Shown: positions 9,572 to 51,429 of the stretch, piece after piece
Layout: every line of letters begins with the position of its first letter
Position numbering within the stretch: position 1 is the first letter of the stretch
NCBI GenBank assembly: GCA_011523795.1
Contig: WTFY01000002.1
Span: 1-64,000 of the forward strand
Source of the DNA: Gammaproteobacteria bacterium
GTDB taxonomy: Bacteria; Pseudomonadota; Gammaproteobacteria; UBA4575
DNA length: 64,000 nucleotides
Reading direction: 5' to 3'
Program-made: the position numbers and the translations under genes
The notes under the pieces: model-generated
Told to the model about the DNA's origin: nothing
Databases searched by the model: none
What the model saw: only the letters and a program-made list of their open reading frames with translations

Positions 9572-10333
9572 TTGTTTCAGGTGACTATCTTCAAGCGCAT
9601 TAACAATCGCGTTTCTCGCGATTTGTGCAAGCTGTTTTCTCAACCTGCCATCAATGCATACCGGGTCACATAAGGTTATGACCACTTCCGTACGCTCTGC
9701 GGACATGATTCTAAATGCGTGTTTGACCAAATTGCTGTTTCTGACATAGGGTACTATCGAGTTGGAGCCATGTGTCTGTGGATAAAGAAGTGCAACAGGC
9801 TGGATTATGGAATCAGTATCAATTGCAGCGGCAAACAGGCGAGGGTGGAATGCCTGAACAGAAGTTCCATCAGTTGTTGTTCCCTCCGGGAAGGATGCAA
9901 CACTGTGCCCTGATTTGAGTCGTTCCCGCATCAGGTTGACAGCGTCAATTACTCCAAATTTTGATCCGCGCCGGATAAAAAGGGTACCTGCCCTACTGGC
10001 AAGGGTGCCAATCACAAACCATCTGCGAATTTCAGCCTTGGAAAGAAATGATACAGGTAACACCGAGGCGATGATTACTACATCCAGCCATGAGATATGG
10101 TTGGCTACAACGAATACTGGTGGAGGATGCGGTGTGCCATGTATCTTCAGGTCGACACCAACAATTTTTGTGACTTGGTACATCCAAGACTGGATTACCT
10201 TGCGCTGTTTTTCTGTCATGACATGGTTCTGGATTCCCCTGAGCACGGTGTAACACAAAATGATTCCTTTCAGGAGGTGGGCGAGCAGGTGCAGTAAACG
10301 AATTATGCCTCTGAAAATGCACTTTGCATCCAT
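9563..10333 (-). CDS. plsC: 1-acyl-sn-glycerol-3-phosphate acyltransferase
   Basis: A 256-residue membrane-associated acyltransferase that makes phosphatidic acid. Motif I (HX4D) is VANHISWLDVV, motif II FIRRGSK follows the GTL segment, and motif III is VASFPEGTTTDG. The N-terminus has one or two hydrophobic segments. The domain order and length are normal. It is tail-to-tail with tpx and follows the DUF255 gene by 16 bases on the same strand, so the two may be co-transcribed. Confidence 0.9.
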   Translation of the reverse strand: MDAKCIFRGIIRLLHLLAHLLKGIILCYTVLRGIQNHVMTEKQRKVIQSWMYQVTKIVGVDLKIHGTPHPPPVFVVANHISWLDVVIIASVLPVSFLSKAEIRRWFVIGTLASRAGTLFIRRGSKFGVIDAVNLMRERLKSGHSVASFPEGTTTDGTSVQAFHPRLFAAAIDTDSIIQPVALLYPQTHGSNSIVPYVRNSNLVKHAFRIMSAERTEVVITLCDPVCIDGRLRKQLAQIARNAIVNALEDSHLKQSA

Positions 10334-10349
10334 GTGATGTCATGTAGTC

Positions 10350-12440
10350 TTAGCACTGGGTGTCAGTATCTGATACGGCTTTTTGCAGTTCGTCCAGTTG
10401 CTGGATTGGTGCCTTGCACTGCATGCCTTCACACATATATGCAGTTACACCCTCAGGGCTTGAATCCCTGTGTGTTTTTTCACTCAACGCGTCCGGCAAA
10501 TTGCCTTCGTCTGCTTCTATAGCAAATACCAGTTGCCGTGGGGTAAAAGCTTTTGAAATTTGTTGCTTCCATGTATCAAGATCATTCTTTTGTCCACGCA
10601 AGATTATGATTTGAGGTGGACAAGCCTGTTCCTCAAATGCATTGATCAGGCTTGCATGTCCAGCAGGTGAATGGGAGACAGCTTGTGAAGCAAACTTCAA
10701 TACACGAACAGCCGCGTCGAGGTACCTGGTCTCGCCAAGCAAGTAGCCCAAGCGTGTCAAGGCCATTGCAGCTATCCCGTTTCCAGATGGCATGGCCTCA
10801 TCACTCATGGTCTTGGACCGCTGAATAAGTTGCTCGTGGTCTCTTGATGTGAAATAAAATCCTCCCGCGGTGCTATCTTCAAATTGCTCCAGCAGCACAT
10901 CAGCAAGTTCGCGTGCCCAGATTAAATTCAGTGTACTCCAGTGCGTTTGTAAACTTTCGATGATGGCATCCAGCAAAAAAGCATAATCATCCAGGTAGGC
11001 ATCCAGATGGGCTCTGCCATCCTTGTATGTCGCAATCAATCGTTGATTGGCCCACATCGTTTGTCGGAGGAAATCCAGAGCACGCAGTGCAGACCGGGTG
11101 TACTCGGGTTTTTCAAGTATTCTTCCTGTGATGACCATGCCACGTATCATCAGTGCATTCCAGCTGCACAGGATTTTTTCATCACACCCTGGGCGAACGC
11201 GTTCCTGACGTAATGAAAACAGCTTCTGTTTTGCTTGATGGAGCAGCATGTCAAATTCTTCGGAAGACACAGCAGCTTTTTGACAAATTTCAGCCTTGCT
11301 TGCAAAACTATGCAAGTGGTATCGGCCCTCAAAATTCGCTTGCCTGTCAAGTCCATAGAAAGGTGAGAAAACAGCGAATTCATCCGGATCAAGTGCTTTT
11401 TTAACTTGTTCGAAGTCCCAAACATAATACTTCCCTTCCTCGCCTTCGGAATCAGCGTCCAAGGAAGAGTAATAGCCCCCTTCAGAGGATTGCATTTCAC
11501 GTATTGCCCATTCAGCAGTGGCTTCACACACGTGCCTGAATTGCATGGATCCCGTCAATGCAAAACCATGGGCATATGACGCAAGGAGCAGACCATTGTC
11601 GTACAGCATCTTTTCGAAATGTGGAATCATCCAGCCTGCATCCACTGAGTAGCGGCAAAATCCTCCACCTAAGTGATCATAGATGCCACCTGCTGCCATT
11701 TTCTCCAAGGAATACAAGGCCATGTGTAAAGAACTGGTCTCCTTGTTTTCCACTGTTATTGCTGATTGCACGTGATAGCGCAATAGGCGGTCGATATAAG
11801 TCGAATGAGGAAATTTTGGAGCAGATCCGAAGCCTCCGTTCATTTCATCGAATGCCTGTTTTACCTGTTTGTCACAAATATCAAACAACTCGTGTGTCAG
11901 ATCATGTTCCTCGTATTGAGGTTCATGGATCTTTCGTAATGCGTTCAGAACTGACTGGTTTTGAGTCATGATTTGCGCGCGCTGGGTTCTGTAGACCTCT
12001 GAGATATGTTGCAACAGGTCCTTGAATGCTGGAAGTCCGTGACGCGTATCCTTGGGGAAATAGGTTCCCCCAAAAAACGGAATTTGATCATCGGGTGTCA
12101 GGAACATCGTCAGTGGCCAGCCACCGGTACGCTGTGTAATCAGATACTGGGCAGTCTGGTAGATCTTATCGATGTCCGGGCGTTCCTCACGATCGATTTT
12201 GATGTTGACGAAGAGCTTGTTCATCAATTCTGCTGTAGCATCATCTTCAAAAGATTCGTGTGCCATGACATGGCACCAATGGCAGGCTGAATATCCGATA
12301 GACAGCAGGATTGGCTTGTCCTCCTGCCTGGCACGCTTCAGGGCCTCTTCACACCACGGGTACCATTCTACTGGATTGTCCGCATGCTGAAGTAAGTAAG
12401 GACTCGTTTCATTAGCGAGATGGTTTTTGCCTTCTATCAT
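10350..12440 (-). CDS. Thioredoxin-domain protein, DUF255/YyaL (SSP411) family
   Basis: A 696-residue protein. Residues 1-165 form the DUF255 thioredoxin-like domain: it opens with [21 protein letters not shown] and has the active-site-like [16 protein letters not shown]. Residues about 190-560 form an (alpha/alpha)6-barrel, similar to glycosyl hydrolase or GlcNAc-epimerase folds, including [21 protein letters not shown]. Related proteins occur from bacteria to mammals (SPATA20), but the biochemical role is unknown. The protein is full length for the family and intact. The ATG at 12440 fits the conserved N-terminus. Confidence 0.92.
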
Positions 12441-22486: not shown

Positions 22487-24490
22487 TTACAGCAGTGGTG
22501 CGATGACTAGGCTCACGATTGCCATGACGTTGATAAGGATATTCATGGATGGTCCCGAGGTATCCTTGAGGGGGTCGCCAACTGTGTCACCAACTACAAC
22601 AGCCTTGTGAACATCTGAGCCCTTGCCGCCAAGATTTCCTCTCTCGATATATTTTTTTGCATTATCCCAAGCGCCTCCTGCAGTCGTCATCGTCAAAGCG
22701 AGCAGGACGCAACCCAGTAGCGCACCCCCAAGCATTCCTCCCAGTGTTTCAGCGCCAAACCCAAAACCGACAACAACCGGGGCGATTACCGCCAGCAAGC
22801 CCGGTGCAACCATGCGCTTTAGAGCTGCAGTGGTCGCTATATCCACGCAGCGAACTGTATCTGGCTTGGCATTGCCTTCCAGCAGGCCAGGTATCTCGCT
22901 AAACTGTCTGCGTATTTCCTTGATCATGTCAAATGCAGCATCGCCGACAGCAGTGATGGTTAAGGATGCCACAATGAAAGGAAATACCCCTCCAATAAAC
23001 AGTCCGATGAGAACCATTGGGTCACTCAGATCGAGGCTGATGGGTTCTTTACCATGACTGACTTCGGCAAGAAATGCAGTGATTATTGCAAGTGCTGCCA
23101 AGGTTGCCGCACCGATTGCAAACCCTTTGCCAATTGCCGCAGTAGTATTGCCTACTTCATCCAACTCGTCTGTAATTTGGCGCACGCCATCTCCGAGTTC
23201 GGCCATCTCGGCTATACCACCTGCATTATCAGCTACCGGTCCATAGGCGTCGATCGCCATTGTAATGCCGACTGTAGCCAGCATGCCTACTGCTGCGATG
23301 CCCACTCCGTACAAATTGGCAAAGTGGTTAGCAAAGAAGATGATTGCAGCCAAGCTCAAGATGGGTATCACGACAGACTGAGTGCCCACAGCCAAGCCTG
23401 CAATGATGACGGTTGCTGGACCTGTTTCCCCATCTTTGGCGATTTTTCTTACAGGTTTGCCTCCCGTGTAGTACTCGGTAACCAGGCCTATGATAATGCC
23501 ACCGATCGCACCGGCAAGTACCGAAGCCCACACGCCAGTATTGATTTCTAACAGGTGAATCACCAGATAGGCTACGGCAATAAACAGGACTGCTGCCGAG
23601 AATGTTCCGATTCGCAAGGCTGTGGCAGGTGATTTTCGTGACGCAGTTTTAACGAGAAGTATTCCAAGGATGGAACAGACAATTCCGACTGAAGCAAGGC
23701 CCAGGGGTAAAAACATCAGGTTCTGTCTTTCACCCAGTTCCTTGATTATGGCCGGCCCCAAAGTGGAAGATATTGCAATAGTGGCTATGATCGAACCACA
23801 GTAGGATTCAAAGATATCCGATCCCATGCCGGCCACGTCCCCAACATTGTCGCCGACATTGTCAGCTATGACGCCCGGGTTGCGTGGATCATCTTCTGGG
23901 ATACCAGCTTCAATTTTGCCCACCAAGTCAGCACCCACGTCTGCACTTTTGGTATAGATTCCTCCTCCTACCCTCGAAAAGAGTGCAACACAAGATGCGC
24001 CCATGCCAAAACCGTGAATGACATTGGCAGTTTCAGGATTACGCCCGAAGGCAAGGTATAGGGCACCAAGTCCCAGCAGGCCCATGGCTGCAATGGTGAG
24101 CCCCATAATGGAACCCCCCATAAAGGCAACATTGAGTGCCACATCCCTGCCTCTTTCATGTGCTGCCACAGTAGTTCTGACATTGGCACGGGTGGCAGTG
24201 TACATCCCGATATAGCCGGCTGCGGAAGAACACAATGCCCCTACAATAAATGCGATAGCCGTGTTCTGTCCCAAATCTGAAATCCAGATTGCAATGGTTA
24301 CCAGTGCTGCAAATACAAACAGTATGGAATATTCACGCCGCATGAAGGTCATGGCGCCTGCATGGATTGCATCTGATATTTCGACGACCTTACTGCTTCC
24401 CTGGGGGTAGCGCAGGATCATCTGGTAAATCAAAAACGCAATGATTAGGCCTAAAACACCCAGGGTAACCGGCAGATGATGAATGGTCAT
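22487..24490 (-). CDS. hppA: Membrane-bound pyrophosphatase, K+-dependent type
   Basis: A 667-residue, roughly 16-helix ion pump driven by PPi hydrolysis. The catalytic core is seen in [55 protein letters not shown] and [20 protein letters not shown]. The K+-dependence determinant region reads [16 protein letters not shown]: Ala and Gly where K+-independent enzymes carry Lys and Thr. This points to the K+-dependent class, which includes H+, Na+ and dual pumps; the ion cannot be settled here. The ATG at 24490 has a strong GGGAGAAAG ribosome site. It is monocistronic and divergent from mrdA. Such pumps recover energy from biosynthetic PPi. Confidence 0.96.
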
Positions 24491-41270: not shown

Positions 41271-44096
41271 CTAGCCGGTACTGCCAATGCCAGCTGCAAC
41301 ACAGTTGATTGACAGCAGCAGAGAGACCAGCACATTCTGCCTGTCTTGGGCGCTGGACTCAACGGCACGGAATTTCCTGATTAGCTCGGCTTGTTCGATA
41401 CCAACCTGATTCAAGAACTTTAGACGCCGGCCAAAATGCCGCTTGAAATTTGGAAAGCGGTCGCAAAGTTCATCTTCTCCCGTAATCTGTAAAACAAATT
41501 TCTTGGTCCGAGAATACTCGGACTGGATGTCCGACAAGATTGTTCTGCAGAAATGAACATTTGTCACGAGTTCTGCATATTTTTCTGCTACTTCCAGGTC
41601 GACTAGCAATAATGTTTTTTCAACGCTGTCCAGTATCAGCCTGAATAATAAATGCCGATTGTACAATTCCTGCAGGAGTTCTTTCCCGAGCTCTCCCCGG
41701 ATGGCAATCAGTTGTTCAAAGCTGCTTCCAGCTCCATACCAGCCCGGCACCAAAAGGCGGTTCTGTGTCCAGGCAAATACCCAAGGAATTGCACGCAGGT
41801 CTGCCAGGGTTGAAGCGCCGAATCTACGAGGGGGCCTTGATCCGATTTTCATGAGCGACAACTCCTCTACCGGACTAGCCTGTTGATAAAACTCTATCAG
41901 ACCAGGTGTTTCTATGAATCTGCGGTACGTAACGTATGCGGTTCCAGAAAGTGCTTCCATGGCTTCATCCAGTTCAGGGCTGGTCTGGTAGGCAGGGTCT
42001 TTACCGGACATGAGGGTATGTGTGAGCGCACTTGAGGCTAGAATCTCCATTTGTTCTTCTGCAAATCCGCGGTTTGCATACTTGTATGACACGACCTCAC
42101 CTTGTTCAGTGACTCGCATACGGCCGTCAATTGTGCCTGCAGGCTGTGCTGCGATAGCCCGCCCACTTGGGGCACCACCACGGCTGACAGAGCCACCGCG
42201 ACCGTGGAAAAATGAAATAGGTACCTTATGCTTGCTGCCTGCTTCCCTGATGAGGATTTGTGCCTTGCTGATCATCCAGTTAGAAGTGAGGAATCCGCCG
42301 TCCTTGTTCGAATCGGAATAGCCGACCATGACTTCCTGTGCACCTCCGTGTTTCCTTATCGTGCGTTTCACGAAGCCGGATTCCAGTAATTCATTGAGAA
42401 TGGCTGGTCCATTTTTGAGGTCTTCGAAGGACTCCAGCAAAGGGACTATGAGAATCCTGCAAGCTTCCAGGCCAGCAGTGTCTGTGAACAAGCCCGCATA
42501 CTTCGCCAAGAGATAAGCGCCCAACACATCAACGGAGGTATGGGTAGTGCTCAGTACAAAGGTGCCAAAGGACTTGGAGTCTAGCTTACTTCTATAGTGC
42601 TTGACTTGCTCAAGCATGGCGAGTGTGTTGCGTGCCTGATCGGATAGTGCATTGATGTTCGGAATCACCCGCAAGGGCTGCAGCAGTTCACTCTTAATCC
42701 ATTCCTTCCATTCATCAGACTTGAAATCCGGAACGTCGATATGTGTTTTTTGATGCAAGGTGCGCCAGATTTCGGAAAGTACGCTGTTGGTAACGGTTGT
42801 GTTTTCACGCAGGTCAAGGCTGGCTGCACGGAATCCGAAAGTGTCAACCATGTGACGCAGGGGTGATACGTCCGAGGTGCTCAGGTGTTCACATCGGGAT
42901 TCATTCAAGCCCTGTTCCAGCTTTAGGAGATCATCCGCAAGATCGGCTGCACTTTGGTAGGCAACTTTTGATTTGTCAGGTTTGTAAATGTTTTCCAGTG
43001 TTGCATCAATGCGGCGCAATATACAACTTAGGTATTGCCTGAAGATTTCACCTGGATTTCTCTTTGAAAGTTGCTGGGTTTCTCCAACAAGCTGCTGTTT
43101 TTCTTCCAGTACATCGAGAAAACTTTGCGTGATAGTGACAGAATGACTGGCTATACTGAGTTTTGCACGAAGTTTTTGTATGTCCTGGCGGTAGCGCACC
43201 AGACAGGTTTTGGCACCCTCATGGATGGCGTATGCAGTGACCTCATTATTCACGTTGGGATTGCCATCCCGGTCCCCCCCTATCCAGGAGCCAAAGCGGA
43301 ACAGTGACGGCACATCAAACTCAAAATGCGGATATGTTTCCCTTAGCGCATGATTGAACTCAGCATAGAGTTTTGATGTTCCATCAAACAGCGATTCAGT
43401 AAAAAAATGCAGGCCCCAAGTAACTTCCTGTTCAACAGTGGGTTTTTCAAGACGAATTTCACCAGTTAACCATAACAGATCAATTTCGTTGCGAAGTTCT
43501 AGAGTTAGCTCATCACGCTCCCGCTGGGTCCAACGTGTCAGTTCTAGTTTTTTCAGCAGAATATAAATTCGTCTGTGGATTTCCAGCACTGTAACGCGCT
43601 TGGCTTCTGTAGGATGAGCTGTAATAACCGGACAAATCGTGCTGTTATCGAGAACTTTCTGGAGTTCCTCAGCAGGAATATTGTGCTTGGCTGCAGTGGA
43701 GAACGTATAAGCAAAAGTCCCTGGCACACGGGCACGGCCATATTCTTTTTCAATCTTCCTTCGCTGCAGCACTGTCGTATTTTGCTCAGCGATACTGAGT
43801 AATTGAAACCAGATGCCATAGGCCTCGAGGACATATAGAACTTGAGAGTCTGTACCGTCACGAATGTCCTTCTGGCCTTCAAAAAAAGCCTCAATATCTG
43901 GTTGGCGAATTCGCAGTACACTGATCAGCTGCCTGTACAGCTCGGATACCAGCTTGTCCTCATAGCTTGCAGCCGTATCTATAATCGTGCGACCAGAAGC
44001 TACACGTGTCAGTTGAATCCAGGAAAGATGTGGAGCATCAGTCATGATGCAGGAGGGCTTTCGAGCAGAGCGTGACTGTCGTAAGCCGATGACCAT
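41271..44096 (-). CDS. ppc: Phosphoenolpyruvate carboxylase
   Basis: A PEP carboxylase of 941 residues (924 if it starts at the ATG at 44045). Catalytic blocks are PVITAHPTEAKRVTVLEIHRR (His), the GYSDSNKDGGFLTSNW block, and FHGRGGSVSRGGAPSGRA followed by VTEQGEVVSYKYAN. In the serine cycle it carboxylates glycolytic PEP to oxaloacetate. The 44096 start has GGAGG only three bases ahead, closer than usual, so either start is possible. It lies between hprA and mtdA in the same strand run; serine-cycle Ppc enzymes are often insensitive to acetyl-CoA, which cannot be read here. Confidence 0.96.
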   Translation of the reverse strand: MVIGLRQSRSARKPSCIMTDAPHLSWIQLTRVASGRTIIDTAASYEDKLVSELYRQLISVLRIRQPDIEAFFEGQKDIRDGTDSQVLYVLEAYGIWFQLLSIAEQNTTVLQRRKIEKEYGRARVPGTFAYTFSTAAKHNIPAEELQKVLDNSTICPVITAHPTEAKRVTVLEIHRRIYILLKKLELTRWTQRERDELTLELRNEIDLLWLTGEIRLEKPTVEQEVTWGLHFFTESLFDGTSKLYAEFNHALRETYPHFEFDVPSLFRFGSWIGGDRDGNPNVNNEVTAYAIHEGAKTCLVRYRQDIQKLRAKLSIASHSVTITQSFLDVLEEKQQLVGETQQLSKRNPGEIFRQYLSCILRRIDATLENIYKPDKSKVAYQSAADLADDLLKLEQGLNESRCEHLSTSDVSPLRHMVDTFGFRAASLDLRENTTVTNSVLSEIWRTLHQKTHIDVPDFKSDEWKEWIKSELLQPLRVIPNINALSDQARNTLAMLEQVKHYRSKLDSKSFGTFVLSTTHTSVDVLGAYLLAKYAGLFTDTAGLEACRILIVPLLESFEDLKNGPAILNELLESGFVKRTIRKHGGAQEVMVGYSDSNKDGGFLTSNWMISKAQILIREAGSKHKVPISFFHGRGGSVSRGGAPSGRAIAAQPAGTIDGRMRVTEQGEVVSYKYANRGFAEEQMEILASSALTHTLMSGKDPAYQTSPELDEAMEALSGTAYVTYRRFIETPGLIEFYQQASPVEELSLMKIGSRPPRRFGASTLADLRAIPWVFAWTQNRLLVPGWYGAGSSFEQLIAIRGELGKELLQELYNRHLLFRLILDSVEKTLLLVDLEVAEKYAELVTNVHFCRTILSDIQSEYSRTKKFVLQITGEDELCDRFPNFKRHFGRRLKFLNQVGIEQAELIRKFRAVESSAQDRQNVLVSLLLSINCVAAGIGSTG

Positions 44097-44161: not shown

Positions 44162-45133
44162 CTAGACCAGTTTGTCTTTCGGTATCTGGCCAGCTTCAAA
44201 TGCTGTCAGGTTATCCAGCACACGATTACCCATCGCAATGCGGGTTTCAGTAGAGGCACTTCCAAGGTGGGGCAACAACACGGCATTTTCCAGTTCAAGA
44301 AAACGGCTGTTCAGATTGGGTTCGCCTTCAAATACATCAAGACCTGCTCCTGCAATTGTGCCATTCTTCAGTGCTTCAATCAGAGCGTCGTTATCCACTA
44401 CATCACCCCGTGCCGTATTGATCAAAAATGCGCCAGGCTTCATTTTGGCAAGATTATCCCTATTCAGTAAATGGTACGTTTCCTTGCCTCCAGGGCAGTG
44501 GATGGAAACAAAATCAGAGGATTCGAGTACCTTGTCTATCGATTCATACTGTGTAGCCTCAAATTCACTGATTACCTCATCAGAAGGGGGATAAGGGTCA
44601 ACGAAGGCAATCTTCATGCCGAAGCCATGATGTGCCCGCCTGGCCATCGCTTGTGCGATTCGTCCCATTCCAATCATGCCCAGTGTCTTGCCCGTGACTT
44701 TGGTCCCAAGCATATGAGTGGGCCTCCAGCCTGTCCAGGATTTGGCTCTTAAGTGACGTTCTCCCTCGCCTGTACGTCGTGCAACCGTCAGGAGCAGGGT
44801 CATGGCGATATCTGCAGTGCAGTCGGTCAAAACTTCTGGTGTATTGGTGACGGTGAGTCCACGTGCTTTGGCCGCATCAAGATCGATATGGTTGAATCCG
44901 ACACCAAAATTCCCGATAAACTTGGTTCGCATTGGTTCAGTGCTTAACACTTCAGCATCGACAGGATCTGTAACCGTGGGCAGGAATGCATCACAAGCAC
45001 CCAGCGCGTGTTTCATTTCTTCTTTGGTCATGGCAACATCAGTTTCGTTCAGTTGCACGTCATATTTTTCCTTTAACGTTGCTTCTACGGCTTCAGGCCA
45101 AGCACGAGAAACAATGACTTTCAGTTTGCTCAT
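44162..45133 (-). CDS. Hydroxypyruvate/glyoxylate reductase, GyaR type
   Basis: A 323-residue D-2-hydroxyacid dehydrogenase. NAD(P) motif LGMIGMGRIAQAMARRAH; catalytic Arg in NTARGDVVDND, Glu in DVFEGEPNLN and His in VLLPHLGSAS. The context in the serine cycle makes hydroxypyruvate to glycerate the likely step. The sequence is of the glyoxylate reductase (GyaR) branch and differs visibly from what I know of Methylobacterium HprA, so this looks like non-orthologous use of the same step. Starts after mtkB with a GGAGTAAAC site 12 bases later. Confidence 0.88.
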   Translation of the reverse strand: MSKLKVIVSRAWPEAVEATLKEKYDVQLNETDVAMTKEEMKHALGACDAFLPTVTDPVDAEVLSTEPMRTKFIGNFGVGFNHIDLDAAKARGLTVTNTPEVLTDCTADIAMTLLLTVARRTGEGERHLRAKSWTGWRPTHMLGTKVTGKTLGMIGMGRIAQAMARRAHHGFGMKIAFVDPYPPSDEVISEFEATQYESIDKVLESSDFVSIHCPGGKETYHLLNRDNLAKMKPGAFLINTARGDVVDNDALIEALKNGTIAGAGLDVFEGEPNLNSRFLELENAVLLPHLGSASTETRIAMGNRVLDNLTAFEAGQIPKDKLV

Positions 45134-45145
45134 TGTAGTTTACTC

Positions 45146-46036
45146 CTAGTCAACCTCTTTCATGACTTGCTCCATGGTCGAGCCCAGCTCAGATGGATCG
45201 GGTGCGACTGTAACACCGGCCTCCTGCAACAATTCCACTTTTTCTGCAGCACTTTCACCTTTACCTGAAACGATCGCACCGGCATGGCCCATCCGGCGCC
45301 CTTTGGGCGCAGTGAGGCCAGCAATGTAGGCTACCACGGGTTTACTCATGTGACTCTTGAAATATTCGGCAGCTTCAGCTTCTTGAGGCCCGCCAATTTC
45401 ACCGATGAGCATGACTGCCTTGGTTTCGGGGTCAGCTTCAAAAAGCTCTAGAATGTCACGGTGTGAACATCCGTTGATGGGGTCGCCGCCAATTCCTACA
45501 CTGGTGGAAACACCTATCCCACATGCTTTCATCTGGGATGCCGCTTCATAGCCCAGTGTACCAGAACGGGCCACAATGCCCACATTACCAGGCACATAGA
45601 TGTGTCCGGGCATGATCCCAAGCAGGCATTTTCCTGGGCTGATGGTACCAGCACAGTTTGGGCCAGTGAGGCGCATCCGGTCTTCTTTCTTGTAGCGGAA
45701 CATGTAGCGTTTGACAAGCATCATGTCCTGGGCAGGAATGCCATCTGTGATCGCCACACAAATTTTGATTCCGGCATCAGCTGCCTCCATGATTGAGTCA
45801 GCGGCAAACGAAGCGGGAACAAATACGATGCTGGCATCAGCACCCGTTTCCTTCACAGCATCCTTCATGGTGTTGAACACTGGCAGGCCAAGATGGGTCT
45901 GTCCCCCTTTTCCAGGGGTTACGCCACCGACTACTTGGGTACCGTATTCAAGCATTTCCTTCGCATGAAAGGTACCAATCTTACCGGTGAACCCTTGCAC
46001 CAGCACTTTGGTTTTGTTGTCGATCATTATGCTCAT
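45146..46036 (-). CDS. mtkB: Malate-CoA ligase (malate thiokinase) alpha subunit
   Basis: A 296-residue SucD-like subunit. CoA-binding N-domain: IDNKTKVLVQGFTGKIGTFHA. The phospho-histidine is in RRMGHAGAIVSGKGESA. GIGVSTSVGIGGDPINGCSHRDIL is a typical SCS-family segment. Taken alone it could be succinyl-CoA synthetase; the immediate mcl, ppc and sga neighbours make malate thiokinase the better call. It activates malate to malyl-CoA with ATP. Confidence 0.9.
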   Translation of the reverse strand: MSIMIDNKTKVLVQGFTGKIGTFHAKEMLEYGTQVVGGVTPGKGGQTHLGLPVFNTMKDAVKETGADASIVFVPASFAADSIMEAADAGIKICVAITDGIPAQDMMLVKRYMFRYKKEDRMRLTGPNCAGTISPGKCLLGIMPGHIYVPGNVGIVARSGTLGYEAASQMKACGIGVSTSVGIGGDPINGCSHRDILELFEADPETKAVMLIGEIGGPQEAEAAEYFKSHMSKPVVAYIAGLTAPKGRRMGHAGAIVSGKGESAAEKVELLQEAGVTVAPDPSELGSTMEQVMKEVD

Positions 46037-46054: not shown

Positions 46055-47233
46055 CTATCCAGCATTGATAACGCGATTACGCTCAGCCACCACTTTTTCT
46101 GCAGCTTCAGATAATGTGGCTGCAGTGATAACAGGGTGGCCACTGTCTTTGAGCATTTGCATGCCTTTTTCCACATTGGTTCCAGAGAGGCGAACTACAA
46201 CAGGTATTTTGACGTTAAGGTTTCCAAATGCCTGGATAACACCTTCGGCAATCCAGTCACAACGGTTAATGCCCGCAAAAATATTGACCAGCATTGCCTT
46301 GACGTTTTCGTCGTCTAGTACAAGCTTGAATGCCTTAGTTACCCGGTCGGGTGAGGCTCCACCTCCAATATCCAGAAAGTTGGCGGGTTCACCGTTCTTG
46401 TGTTTGATCATGTCCATCGTGGCCATGGCGAGTCCTGCGCCGTTAATCATGCAGCCTATATCTCCGTCCAGGCCCACATAGCTCAACCCCCTGTCAGATG
46501 CAGCAGTCTCACGCACATCTTCCTGGGACTTGTCACGCAACTCGGAAATTCTGGGCCGCCTGAACATGGCATTGTCATCAAAGCTCATTTTGGCATCCAG
46601 TGCCAGGATGTGATGGTCCTTGGTTATGACAAGTGGGTTGATTTCGACAAGTGTGGCATCCAGTTCGCGGAAAGCACGATAAGCGCCTTCGAAACAATGA
46701 ACAGCCTGGCTAATCTGTTCGGGATGGATATCGAGAGCAAAAGCAAGTTCCCGTGCTTGGAAATCCTGCAAGCCGACTGCCGGGTCAACTTCAATTCTGA
46801 TAATGGACTCCGGTTTCGTGGCGGATACCTCTTCTATATCCATGCCTCCTTCTGATGAGGTTACGATGACTACCCGCTGCTTATTTCTGTCCAGCACCAG
46901 TGCAAGATAAATTTCTCTGTCAATATCTGAAACCTCTTCGACATAAAGACGGTACACAACCTTGCCATTCGGTCCTGTCTGGTGTGTCACCAAGCGTTTG
47001 CCAAGCAATTCTTCTGCAGCATTCCAAATCTCTTCATCATTTGAACAGACCTTGATTCCACCCGCCTTGCCTCGTGCACCAGAATGGATCTGTGCCTTGA
47101 CGACCCACTGGTGTCCACCAATTTCCTTCGCTCGATAGACAGCCTGTTCAGGACTGTATGCGAGTCCGCCAGGTGCAATGGCTACACCAAATTCAGATAG
47201 TAGTTCTTTGGCCTGGTATTCATGAATATTCAC
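46055..47233 (-). CDS. mtkA: Malate-CoA ligase (malate thiokinase) beta subunit
   Basis: A 392-residue ATP-grasp SucC-like subunit: [20 protein letters not shown] at the start, then [55 protein letters not shown] and [17 protein letters not shown]. Starts at GTG 47233 with a strong GGGAGGGA site. It pairs with mtkB 19 bases downstream. As for mtkB, the choice over succinyl-CoA ligase rests on linkage to mcl. Confidence 0.9.
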
Positions 47234-47416: not shown

Positions 47417-48358
47417 CTAGGATTTTGCTGCAATGGCTTCAGCAGCACGTACGATGTTTTCCGCCATGCGTGCCGAGGCAGCATCTATCATTTTTCCGTC
47501 CAGTGATGCAGCTCCCTTGCCTTCCTTGGCAGCCTTGTCCAGTTCTTCAAGAATTCTTTTTGCCTTGTTTACTTCAGCATCAGGAGGCGTGAACACCTCG
47601 TTTGCCAGGTCAATCTGCTTGGGATGGATGGCCCATTTGCCTTCACATCCCAATGCTGCGGCGCGTCTTGCTGCCAGAAGATAGCCCTCAGGATCATCGA
47701 AATCACCGAATGGACCATCTATTGGACGCAATCCATAGGCTCGACATGCAACGGTCATTCTTGAAATTGCTGCATGCCACTGATCGCCAGGATAATCAGG
47801 ATTCAGGCCACCAATGTTGACAGTGCGGGCACGATTGCTTGCTGCGTAATCGGCTACTCCAAAATGCATGGCCTCTAATCGGGAGCTTGAGGTTGCTATA
47901 GCTTCCACGTTTGCCATGCCCAGGGCCGTCTCAATGAGAGCTTCAAGGCCAATTCTGTTTTCAAATCCCTTTGATTCTTCAATCTGGGTCACCATGGCAT
48001 CCACCATGTATACATCAGACGGTGTGCCTACTTTTGGAATGAGTATGGTATCGAGTGTACTTCCTGCCTGTTCAACTACATCCACCACGTCGCGGTACAT
48101 GTAATGTGTGTCCAATCCGTTGATGCGAACAGAAACGGTTTTACTGTGACTTTTCCAGTCGTGTTCATTCAGTGCTGCAATGATATTCTTGCGTGCCTGT
48201 ACCTTGTCATCCGGTGCTACGGCATCCTCCAGATCGAGAAACACATAGTCTGCTGAACAGGTAAGTGCTTTCTCTATCATCCTTGGATTAGACCCCGGTA
48301 CGGCCAGCTCGCAGCGCTGCAATCGTTGCTGGGCAGGTTTGAATTGGGTAAAACTCAT
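47417..48358 (-). CDS. mcl: L-malyl-CoA lyase
   Basis: A 313-residue CitE-superfamily TIM-barrel lyase. Blocks are CELAVPGSNPRMIEKAL, YVFLDLEDAVAPDDKVQARKN, VRINGLDTHYMYRDVVDVVE, LIETALGMANVEAIA and GLRPIDGPFGDFDDPEGY. These match serine-cycle Mcl closely. It splits malyl-CoA into acetyl-CoA and glyoxylate. The loop after NIGGLNPDY is shorter than I recall in Methylobacterium Mcl. ATG 48358 has GAGGAATT and lies 14 bases after the sga stop. Confidence 0.95.
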   Translation of the reverse strand: MSFTQFKPAQQRLQRCELAVPGSNPRMIEKALTCSADYVFLDLEDAVAPDDKVQARKNIIAALNEHDWKSHSKTVSVRINGLDTHYMYRDVVDVVEQAGSTLDTILIPKVGTPSDVYMVDAMVTQIEESKGFENRIGLEALIETALGMANVEAIATSSSRLEAMHFGVADYAASNRARTVNIGGLNPDYPGDQWHAAISRMTVACRAYGLRPIDGPFGDFDDPEGYLLAARRAAALGCEGKWAIHPKQIDLANEVFTPPDAEVNKAKRILEELDKAAKEGKGAASLDGKMIDAASARMAENIVRAAEAIAAKS

Positions 48359-48372
48359 CTTTTAATTCCTCA

Positions 48373-49629
48373 CTACTTGTTCTTGTTGACTGTGGTTCTG
48401 GCTTCGCGGGGAGCTTTCGTTGAACCAAACTTTTTGATCTTTTTGGCAGTTTTGCGATAGTACTCTCCTGCTGCGGCAACACCGCTACCAGGTTTCACAT
48501 TCATGCCCGCATCCCGCATTGCCATTTCCACTACACCCAGCACAGCCATCATTCTCGCTTCATTGTTGTCGCCAAGATGTCCGATCCTGAACACCTTGCC
48601 TGCAACTTTGGAGAGTCCTGCGCCCAGAGACACATTGTAACGGTGATAGGCAATGTGAATCACTTCAGCAGCATTGACGCTTGGCGGCACTTCAATTGCA
48701 GTTACCGTATCGGAATACCATTTGGGTGATTTAGCACAGGGCTTCAATCCCCAGGCTTTGATTGCTCTGCGCACGCCTTCTGCTAGTCGGTGGTGACGCT
48801 TGAACACATTTTCCAAGCCTTCTTCCAAGAGCAGGTCAATTGCAGCACGCAGCCCTCGCAGCATGGGAACTGAAGGGGTATAGGGGAAATAGCCATCTTT
48901 GTTGGCATTGATGTGATCTTGGATATCCAGGAAACATCGTGCACACTGCGCAGTCTTACGAGCCCTCAGTGCCCTTGGACTGAAGGCAACGATAGCCATG
49001 CCTGCTGGGAGCATGAATCCTTTTTGTGATCCACTTACAGCGACATCAACACCCCATTCATCCATACGGAAATCAATGCTGGCAATCGAGCTGACTCCAT
49101 CCACCATCAGCATGGCAGGATGTTTCACAGCATCCATGGCCCGCCTCAGCCCGGCTATATCGCTGGCTACACCGGTTGCAGTTTCATTGTGACATACTAC
49201 AACTGCCTTGATCTGATGCTCCTTGTCTTTGGCGAGGATACGCTTGAACTTGGCAATAGGGACACCTTCGCCCCAGGGTGTCTCTATCAGGTCGACGTTC
49301 AGGCCAATCCTGCATGCAAGGTCATACCAAAGGTGACTGAACTGTCCAAAGCGAGTAGTAAGAATCTTGTCTCCAGGAGAGAGAGTATTAGCCAATGCAA
49401 CTTCCCAGCCAGCTGTGCCGGTAGCAGGGAACAGAAAACATGTGCCCTTGGTGGTCTTGAAGATTTTTTTACAATCACGCAACAGGGGTTTGACAAGTTC
49501 TGGAAAGTCAGGTGCACGATGATCCTCCTGTGGAACGATCATGGCATTCTGTACCGCCTGGGGTATATGCGTCGGTCCTGGAGCAAACAGGTAGTTTCTT
49601 CCAGGAAAAGCTAATTTTTCGCTAGGCAT
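48373..49629 (-). CDS. sgaA: Serine-glyoxylate aminotransferase
   Basis: A 418-residue class V PLP aminotransferase. It opens GRNYLFAPGPTHIPQAVQNA. Core blocks are FLFPATGTAGWEVALAN, VVVCHNETATGVASD, MLMVDGVSSIASIDFRM and the PLP lysine in VSGSQKGFMLPAG. It turns serine and glyoxylate into hydroxypyruvate and glycine. A lysine-rich tail (about 395-418) extends past the fold. ATG 49629 has AAGGAATT ahead. The 241-base gap upstream (49630-49870) holds no gene I believe in. Confidence 0.95.
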   Translation of the reverse strand: MPSEKLAFPGRNYLFAPGPTHIPQAVQNAMIVPQEDHRAPDFPELVKPLLRDCKKIFKTTKGTCFLFPATGTAGWEVALANTLSPGDKILTTRFGQFSHLWYDLACRIGLNVDLIETPWGEGVPIAKFKRILAKDKEHQIKAVVVCHNETATGVASDIAGLRRAMDAVKHPAMLMVDGVSSIASIDFRMDEWGVDVAVSGSQKGFMLPAGMAIVAFSPRALRARKTAQCARCFLDIQDHINANKDGYFPYTPSVPMLRGLRAAIDLLLEEGLENVFKRHHRLAEGVRRAIKAWGLKPCAKSPKWYSDTVTAIEVPPSVNAAEVIHIAYHRYNVSLGAGLSKVAGKVFRIGHLGDNNEARMMAVLGVVEMAMRDAGMNVKPGSGVAAAGEYYRKTAKKIKKFGSTKAPREARTTVNKNK

Positions 49630-49870: not shown

Positions 49871-50788
49871 TCAAGGCTGCTTTCCTGGGTCGAGGTAAAT
49901 CAGGCTCTTACCCAGACGTCCCCCATAGTTGCCTGCAGAGATCATGACCAGACCAGGGGTATCCACAGACGCCTTGATCGCAGCCTGCGTGGCATCGACT
50001 ATCGGTTGCATGCCCTGACCATTCATGATGATTTCCATGACAGAATGAACACCTTGCGGCAGGCCTGTTTCCACGTCCGGATTATCCTGTAAGAGCGGGC
50101 AAAATTTTTCGTATGTACTTGCGATGGTAAAATCATAATTGCTTCCTGCCTTGGAACCGCTGCCTGCAATTCCGCCAGGAAATGTGGTGATCACACCCGG
50201 TATGGGACGTATGGCTTCCACACCATTTTCTGCCGCCTCAAGCGCGGAATCCACACTGTCTCCGAAGTACCATAGATTGCCTCCCATGAGGCCATCGGTA
50301 TAGCCTAGTCTCCTGTCGAGAATGAATTCACCACCAAGTATCGGGATCCACCACATCTTGCGTCCAAAGCGTTCGATACGCTTCTGGTAGCCATTACCAA
50401 AGTAGGCCACTTTACGACCCATGTGATAATAATCTTCCGAGTCGACCAGATTAAAGCATGAAGCCGTTGGACAGGTGAGCACATTCTGGCTGATTCGTAC
50501 CAGTGCGGCACGTTCCAAGGCCTTCACGCGATCTTTGCGAAAACGCGGTATATGCAGTTGAACTATGGCCCCTGGTCTGCCATCAGGTGTGGCGAAGTCC
50601 TCATCTCCTCCCGGGCCTACATAGCGGTCCATGCCTGCTTCACAGTCACACAGTATGGAGCTTGAAGCGTTACCGGTCGCTGCCTGAACCGCGTGATCCA
50701 GCCATTTCTGGTCGCGTGCGGTAATCAGGAATTCTGTGTATAAGCTTCTGAACGCTTCTGCGTAGGTATCATCGATTTTCGCAGTCAT
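49871..50788 (-). CDS. fhcD: Formylmethanofuran:H4MPT formyltransferase
   Basis: A 305-residue Ftr/FhcD. The opening IDDTYAEAFRSLYTEFLITA, the GMDRYVGPGGDEDFATPDGRPG segment split here around positions 50-70, NVLTCPTASCFN, and the middle blocks FGRKMWWIPILGGEFILD and IPGVITTFPGGIAGSGSKAG are characteristic of the family. It passes the formyl group between H4MPT and the methanofuran-like carrier in methylotrophic formaldehyde oxidation, in complex with FhcABC. Starts two bases after the cyclo-ligase stop. The fhcA, fhcB and fhcC genes are not in the window. Confidence 0.95.
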   Translation of the reverse strand: MTAKIDDTYAEAFRSLYTEFLITARDQKWLDHAVQAATGNASSSILCDCEAGMDRYVGPGGDEDFATPDGRPGAIVQLHIPRFRKDRVKALERAALVRISQNVLTCPTASCFNLVDSEDYYHMGRKVAYFGNGYQKRIERFGRKMWWIPILGGEFILDRRLGYTDGLMGGNLWYFGDSVDSALEAAENGVEAIRPIPGVITTFPGGIAGSGSKAGSNYDFTIASTYEKFCPLLQDNPDVETGLPQGVHSVMEIIMNGQGMQPIVDATQAAIKASVDTPGLVMISAGNYGGRLGKSLIYLDPGKQP

Positions 50789-50790
50789 AC

Positions 50791-51429
50791 CTAGTTCCGC
50801 CCAATACCTTCGTAGACGGCATCTTCAGTGATGACCTTGTCCATATAGACATCATGTGGAGCTACCAGAACTTCATCGAAAAGCTGCGATTCGTAGCACA
50901 GTGCAACGAGTGGGCAGTCAGGGCGGGCTTTTTCAAGCAGGCGGTCATAGTATCCCTGCCCATTTCCCATGCGTCCTCCTTTACGGTCAAAACCCACGCC
51001 CGGCACCATGATGATGTCTAGGTCTTCAGGTTCCACTTCTTTTTCAGGATTTCCCCACAGCTCCCTGGGTGGTTCAAGAATGTTCCACTTGCCCACGACC
51101 ATTTCCTCTAGGCTTTCCATCCACCACAACCCCAGCTTGTTCTCACCATTTTCGTCTTCGGTACAATAGGGGACGATGATTTTTTTTTCACTTTCGGCCA
51201 CTTCTTCGAGCAGTTGTGGCTTGGTTCGGGTTTCTGACCGGCAGTCAATGTACCACATTGCGGTGTTTGCACGCTGATACTCTGGCAAGGCCATAAATCT
51301 CTGGCAAGCCTGTACGCTGAGTTCATCTTTGTTTTCCTGGGCATTACGGCGGTCATAGGCTTCGCGCCGCATCTTGTTTTTGCGTTCCATTACCGCTTTA
51401 AGTTCTTCGGGAGATAGTAGTGTGGCCAT
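50791..51429 (-). CDS. 5-formyltetrahydrofolate cyclo-ligase homologue
   Basis: A 212-residue 5-FCL/MTHFS family protein. The C-terminal signature VPGVGFDRKGGRMGNGQGYY followed by DRLL is canonical, and the N-terminal KNKMRREAYDRRNAQEN carries the expected basic motif. Family members convert 5-formyl-H4F to 5,10-methenyl-H4F with ATP. Start at ATG 51429 (AGGA ahead), not the in-frame codon at 51465. It is the first gene after the operon promoter, and its stop is two bases from fhcD, indicating coupling. An acidic insert (about 95-135) makes it somewhat longer than the usual 180-200 residues. Confidence 0.88.
   Translation of the reverse strand: MATLLSPEELKAVMERKNKMRREAYDRRNAQENKDELSVQACQRFMALPEYQRANTAMWYIDCRSETRTKPQLLEEVAESEKKIIVPYCTEDENGENKLGLWWMESLEEMVVGKWNILEPPRELWGNPEKEVEPEDLDIIMVPGVGFDRKGGRMGNGQGYYDRLLEKARPDCPLVALCYESQLFDEVLVAPHDVYMDKVITEDAVYEGIGRN

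Follow-up and report, generated by a model that had tools for sequence, protein, structure and literature searches.

The window analysed in this work, a stretch of 64,000 nucleotides from the genome (G000) of a marine gammaproteobacterial methylotroph, carries a gene for a 5-formyltetrahydrofolate cyclo-ligase (5-FCL) immediately upstream of a gene of the Ftr/FhcD family, and both genes precede a set of serine-cycle genes. What could a cyclo-ligase acting on a folate and a formyltransferase of this family do together?

A cyclo-ligase gene is paired with an Ftr-family gene in a serine-cycle cluster

The genes of interest were assigned as follows; FhcD2 is the label given here to the Ftr-family copy of the window.

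50791..51429, minus strand: 5-formyltetrahydrofolate cyclo-ligase, FhcD2-associated subtype, 212 amino acids (profile matches)
49871..50788, minus strand: FhcD2, divergent paralogue of formylmethanofuran:H4MPT formyltransferase, 305 amino acids (profiles, tree, fold)
48373..49629, minus strand: class V aminotransferase, proposed serine-glyoxylate aminotransferase, sga (profile searches, position)
47417..48358, minus strand: CitE/malyl-CoA lyase family protein, proposed mcl (profile search, position)
46055..47233, minus strand: malate thiokinase large subunit, mtkA (reading of the translation)
45146..46036, minus strand: malate thiokinase small subunit, mtkB (reading of the translation)
44162..45133, minus strand: hydroxypyruvate reductase, hprA (reading of the translation)
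41271..44096, minus strand: phosphoenolpyruvate carboxylase, ppc (reading of the translation)

The cyclo-ligase matched Pfam profile PF01812 with 133.5 bits (cut-off 27; E value 1.1e-38) and NCBIfam profile TIGR02727 with 131 bits (cut-off 84.9), which bears out its preliminary description as a cyclo-ligase homologue. It is the only PF01812 protein encoded in the genome of the window. FhcD2 matched both lobes of its family over their full length (PF01913 FTR, 143.8 bits; PF02741 FTR_C, 160.4 bits). The junction of the two genes reads TAG-GT-ATG, so that stop and start are indeed two bases apart, as had been described. In a promoter scan the signal was at chance level, and in a terminator scan it was below chance.

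In the order UBA4575, to which the genome belongs, the pair is located within sga-mcl-mtkA-mtkB-hprA-ppc on all contigs of sufficient length. Orthologues of mtkA are 57-75% identical, and the SucC-like gene of the window's genome is distinct at 45%. Each genome gave a single full-strength match for folD. In all the remaining genera of the order this gene separates fhcD2 from sga, and at most of the other gammaproteobacterial loci it follows fhcD2 immediately. In the window's genus folD is found outside the serine-cycle cluster (G000:C22:34862-35353 in the window's genome); in the four genomes in which it shares a contig with the canonical fhcD, some 11 kb separate the two genes.

FhcD2 is distinct from the FhcD subunit of the Fhc complex

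The Ftr-family gene of the window had initially been taken for the canonical, H4MPT-linked fhcD. This identification was not upheld. The genome (2.07 Mb, 97% complete) contains two Ftr-family genes, and the canonical FhcD is encoded on another contig inside fhcBADC (G000:C22:45880), with a score of 420 bits against TIGR03119 as compared to 299 bits for FhcD2. In a tree of 113 sequences including three archaeal Ftr, which was built by a quick method and for which the program warned of long branches, the FhcD2 type formed one clade of 49 sequences (SH-aLRT 100, stem of 2.0 changes per site) outside the bacterial FhcD and also outside these archaeal Ftr. Neither fhcA, fhcB nor fhcC lies alongside fhcD2. 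A function of the window copy as subunit of the Fhc complex was rejected because it falls outside the bacterial FhcD clade and because the second gene fills this role. Both proteins of the pair thus belong to known families, but membership of FhcD2 among the canonical FhcD subunits fails.

FhcD2 orthologues from Gammaproteobacteria and Planctomycetes show 63-91% identity to the FhcD2 of the window, as compared to about 38% between the latter and the canonical FhcD of its own genome. In the class sample FhcD2 proteins scored 523-690 bits and the remaining ones at most 221 bits, and all 11 FhcD2-positive genomes of this sample also had another Ftr-family match, with a score in the canonical range.

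Compared with canonical FhcD (6s6y) and archaeal Ftr (1ftr), FhcD2 has the same fold (Foldseek TM score about 0.78, 36-42% identity; the model, with a pLDDT of 80.5 and three loops below 50, matched 1ftr and 6s6y_D). It also keeps 58 family-wide residues, including E252, the equivalent of E245 of Methanopyrus kandleri Ftr, which we take to be catalytic. FhcD2 differs from these proteins by its separate clade, by two extra loops (approximately residues 60-65 and 80-84) and by invariant changes in conserved motifs: position 226 is Y or F in 49/49 FhcD2 proteins as opposed to N in 64/64 others, and at position 40 the F of an otherwise conserved motif is replaced by N or H. Moreover, unlike canonical fhcD, fhcD2 is located outside the fhc operon and is partnered by a 5-FCL gene.

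Six genomes of the order, G001-G006, contain three Ftr-family genes each, namely fhcD2 and two canonical fhcD genes of different clades (second canonical loci, L023-L028); of these two canonical types, the window's genome keeps only one.

The cyclo-ligase is a full-length family member of its own subtype

An acidic insert of about 40 residues, previously ascribed to the cyclo-ligase, was rejected on the basis of profile mapping and alignment. Residues 17-202 cover 186 positions of PF01812 with 186 residues, and alignment with canonical gammaproteobacterial cyclo-ligases revealed insertions of only about 4 and about 7 residues in addition to short terminal extensions. The structural model (pLDDT 86.5) gave the best matches to 2jcb, 1ydm, 1sou and 3hy3-6, with TM scores of 0.80/0.87 against 2jcb. 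Like the known 5-FCL/MTHFS proteins (2jcb, 1ydm, 3hy3), the cyclo-ligase of the pair is a full-length member of the family in which the GxGxGYYD motif is kept; unlike these, it represents a subtype with two short insertions, and its gene is co-inherited with fhcD2 instead of being a lone housekeeping gene.

FhcD2-type cyclo-ligases formed one clade (SH-aLRT 99) that takes in four unlinked ones of FhcD2-positive Planctomycetes. In 17 of the 18 FhcD2-positive genomes of the order, the cyclo-ligase of the pair is the sole 5-FCL and must therefore also fulfil any housekeeping function. The preliminary description had regarded the absence of a second 5-FCL, together with full complementation of fau mutants, as favouring a plain housekeeping role. 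That absence was found in these 17 genomes, but for the reason given it reads ambiguously. In FhcD1-only genomes the 5-FCL is of a different type and encoded at another place, or there is none.

Genome G265 has an FhcD2-type cyclo-ligase and lacks FhcD2. Its cyclo-ligase gene (L204, 8605-9204) is divergent from two adjacent genes (9653-11482) that read like mtdA/mtdB and presumably code for methylene-H4MPT/H4F dehydrogenases.

Linkage and co-inheritance of the two genes

The occurrence of the same pair in relatives, suggested earlier as a check, was clearly established: the cyclo-ligase gene is located directly upstream of fhcD2 in all 18 FhcD2-positive genomes of the order (in G006 it is cut by the contig edge), which is far beyond chance. 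The coupling to an Ftr-family gene noted at the outset thus recurs in relatives and is functionally meaningful. Outside the order, the two genes are neighbours at each gammaproteobacterial locus whose upstream sequence extends far enough. Further gammaproteobacterial families, Candidatus Porisulfidus among them, also have the pair. In Planctomycetes they are adjacent in four loci and divergently oriented in a fifth; four planctomycete genomes encode FhcD2 without an adjacent cyclo-ligase, and their sole cyclo-ligase is still of the same subtype. No further FhcD2 was found in the phylum sample. Sponges are a reported habitat of bacteria assigned to an order and family called UBA4575 (PMC8941161).

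Two planctomycete records, L123 and L111 (the unlinked cyclo-ligase of the latter being L179), grouped among gammaproteobacterial sequences in the FhcD2 tree as well as in the cyclo-ligase tree, a pattern suggestive of joint transfer of the two genes. Distances between FhcD2 proteins and between the corresponding cyclo-ligases were correlated (Mantel r of 0.88, n = 40 pairs), a value to which shared ancestry contributes and which it inflates. A housekeeping 5-FCL gene placed next to fhcD2 by chance was rejected as an explanation, given that the linkage is conserved in the order and beyond and that the two genes are co-inherited even where they are unlinked.

FhcD2 tends to occur in genomes that lack ftfL

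FtfL is the usual C1-folate maker in serine-cycle methylotrophs. A search for ftfL with the PF01268 profile gave no match in the genome of the window, whose serine cycle thus did not appear as one fed by FtfL. Full-length ftfL was found in only one of the 19 genomes of the order, and it was absent from 17 of the 18 that are FhcD2-positive. In the class sample, ftfL was absent from 9/11 FhcD2-positive genomes and present in 31/39 genomes with canonical FhcD only (Fisher p = 4e-4), and among MtkA-positive genomes, i.e. those whose malate thiokinase orthologue, taken as serine-cycle marker, shares at least 57% identity with MtkA of the window, it was absent from 6/8 with FhcD2 and present in 24/26 without (p = 5e-4); these genome-level p values are inflated by relatedness, and the contrast collapsed to families gave p = 0.06. 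Among named FhcD2-positive genomes, a set that partly overlaps the class sample, 22/24 were devoid of ftfL. FhcD2 and ftfL occur together in five genomes (G002, G225, G102, G398 and G403). Methylene-H4F could also be supplied by the spontaneous reaction of formaldehyde with H4F.

Two ftfL frames of one genus without FhcD2 (G101:C1:83704-85341 and G224:C95:3446-5086) contain one internal TGA each, possibly a recoded codon.

Proposed pathway

Enzymes of the Ftr/FhcD type carry formyl groups from a furan carrier to the N5 position of a pterin and back. With H4F as the pterin, this would give 5-formyl-H4F, the substrate of the cyclo-ligase, whose product methenyl-H4F is in turn the substrate of FolD. 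FhcD2 is proposed to be a formyl-methylofuran:H4F N5-formyltransferase. Judged from the sequences, it is reasonably probable that the pair constitutes the entry step of an FtfL-free C1 assimilation leading from formyl-methylofuran via H4F to the serine cycle, and formyl transfer to folate by FhcD2 and the cyclo-ligase probably replaces the usual formate-using enzyme. The pathway would comprise the following steps: (i) canonical FhcD of the Fhc complex would transfer the formyl group of formyl-H4MPT to yield formyl-methylofuran; (ii) FhcD2 would pass it on to N5 of H4F, giving 5-formyl-H4F; (iii) the cyclo-ligase would convert 5-formyl-H4F to 5,10-methenyl-H4F with consumption of ATP; (iv) FolD would form methylene-H4F; (v) serine hydroxymethyltransferase (SHMT) would introduce the latter into the serine cycle, the genes of which lie immediately downstream. 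We lean slightly towards the broader view that the serine cycle is fed here by a second, previously unrecognised route, in which an Ftr paralogue would pass the formyl group of formyl-methylofuran directly to H4F, 5-formyl-H4F would be a true intermediate, and assimilation would separate from dissimilation ahead of formate.

Like the FtfL-Fch-MtdA branch of Methylorubrum extorquens, an established H4F-linked assimilation pathway (PMC2680597, PMC8879981), the proposed branch would provide methylene-H4F for serine at the expense of one ATP per C1 unit; it differs in that it would start at formyl-methylofuran instead of formate, proceed via 5-formyl-H4F and not 10-formyl-H4F, and make use of FolD. 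Since methylofuran is bound tightly to Fhc in M. extorquens (PMC8141765), FhcD2 may need docking on FhcABC. We infer H4F as formyl acceptor, the direction of the reaction and the contact with the Fhc complex.

The two roles envisaged in the preliminary description, clearing of 5-formyl-pterins or activity on a formyl-H4MPT species, leave the missing ftfL, folD in the operon and the existence of an FhcD2 subfamily unexplained. For these three reasons, a productive 5-formyl-H4F intermediate fits better.

In the open-access literature we found no prior report of this gene combination or of the proposed reaction, no link between 5-FCL and methylofuran, and no serine-cycle organism lacking ftfL. 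The best-studied methylotroph with a serine cycle divides its C1 units between burning and assimilation at the level of formate, and these units reach folate through FtfL. If the proposed pathway is true, marine and sponge-associated Gammaproteobacteria and some Planctomycetes have another C1 branch point, and 5-formyl-H4F is a productive metabolite, not merely a damaged cofactor. Annotations that call methylotrophy incomplete for want of ftfL would require revision, and synthetic methylotrophy would gain from the pair a C1-folate module that is independent of formate.

Alternative explanations

A different function, which we regard as unlikely, is that the cyclo-ligase recycles 5-formyl-H4F, an inhibitor of folate enzymes made by SHMT at high serine-cycle flux, with FhcD2 as helper or unrelated passenger. 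Such recycling is the function that textbooks assign to 5-FCL (PMC1971073), and it would suit the only 5-FCL of 17 of the 18 FhcD2-positive order genomes, encoded as it is in the serine-cycle cluster. However, it accounts neither for FhcD2, which has been inherited together with the cyclo-ligase subtype in more than one phylum, nor for the absent ftfL. Genomes with FhcD1 only either encode a different type of 5-FCL at another place or lack one.

It is less likely still that both enzymes act on H4MPT. FhcD2 would then be another formyl-methylofuran:H4MPT formyltransferase, and 5-formyl-H4MPT would be closed to methenyl-H4MPT by the cyclo-ligase. FhcD2 is an Ftr-family protein with a score just above the cut-off of TIGR03119, and the Methanothermobacter homologue of 5-FCL has been suggested to act on 5-formyl-H4MPT (PMC3087415). 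The homologues of Methanothermobacter and Methanopyrus likewise occur in organisms with Ftr/H4MPT chemistry; they differ from the present case in that H4F was not found there and that linkage to an Ftr paralogue is not described in the passage concerned. On the other hand, such a pair would duplicate canonical FhcD of the same genomes and, presumably, Mch, and the known-pathway step requires no ATP. Furthermore, folD and the serine-cycle surroundings indicate folate, and the ftfL pattern would be unexplained.

Transfer of formyl groups from 5-formyl-H4F to methylofuran, by which surplus C1-folate would be converted to formate via Fhc, is very improbable: Ftr reactions are reversible and FhcD2 retains the family-wide conserved residues, but the adjacent ATP-using cyclo-ligase would compete for 5-formyl-H4F, and cells without ftfL require a supply of C1-folate rather than a drain.

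Two further genes of the genome were recorded. Positions 22487-24490 of the window encode a sodium-translocating membrane pyrophosphatase (NCBIfam profile, 1075 bits; cut-off 926). A gene for the methanethiol oxidase MtoX (L051:885-2258 on G000:C22; 764.8 bits, cut-off 650) is separated from fhcBADC by about 5 kb, which suggests methanethiol or DMS as source of the formaldehyde oxidised by the organism.
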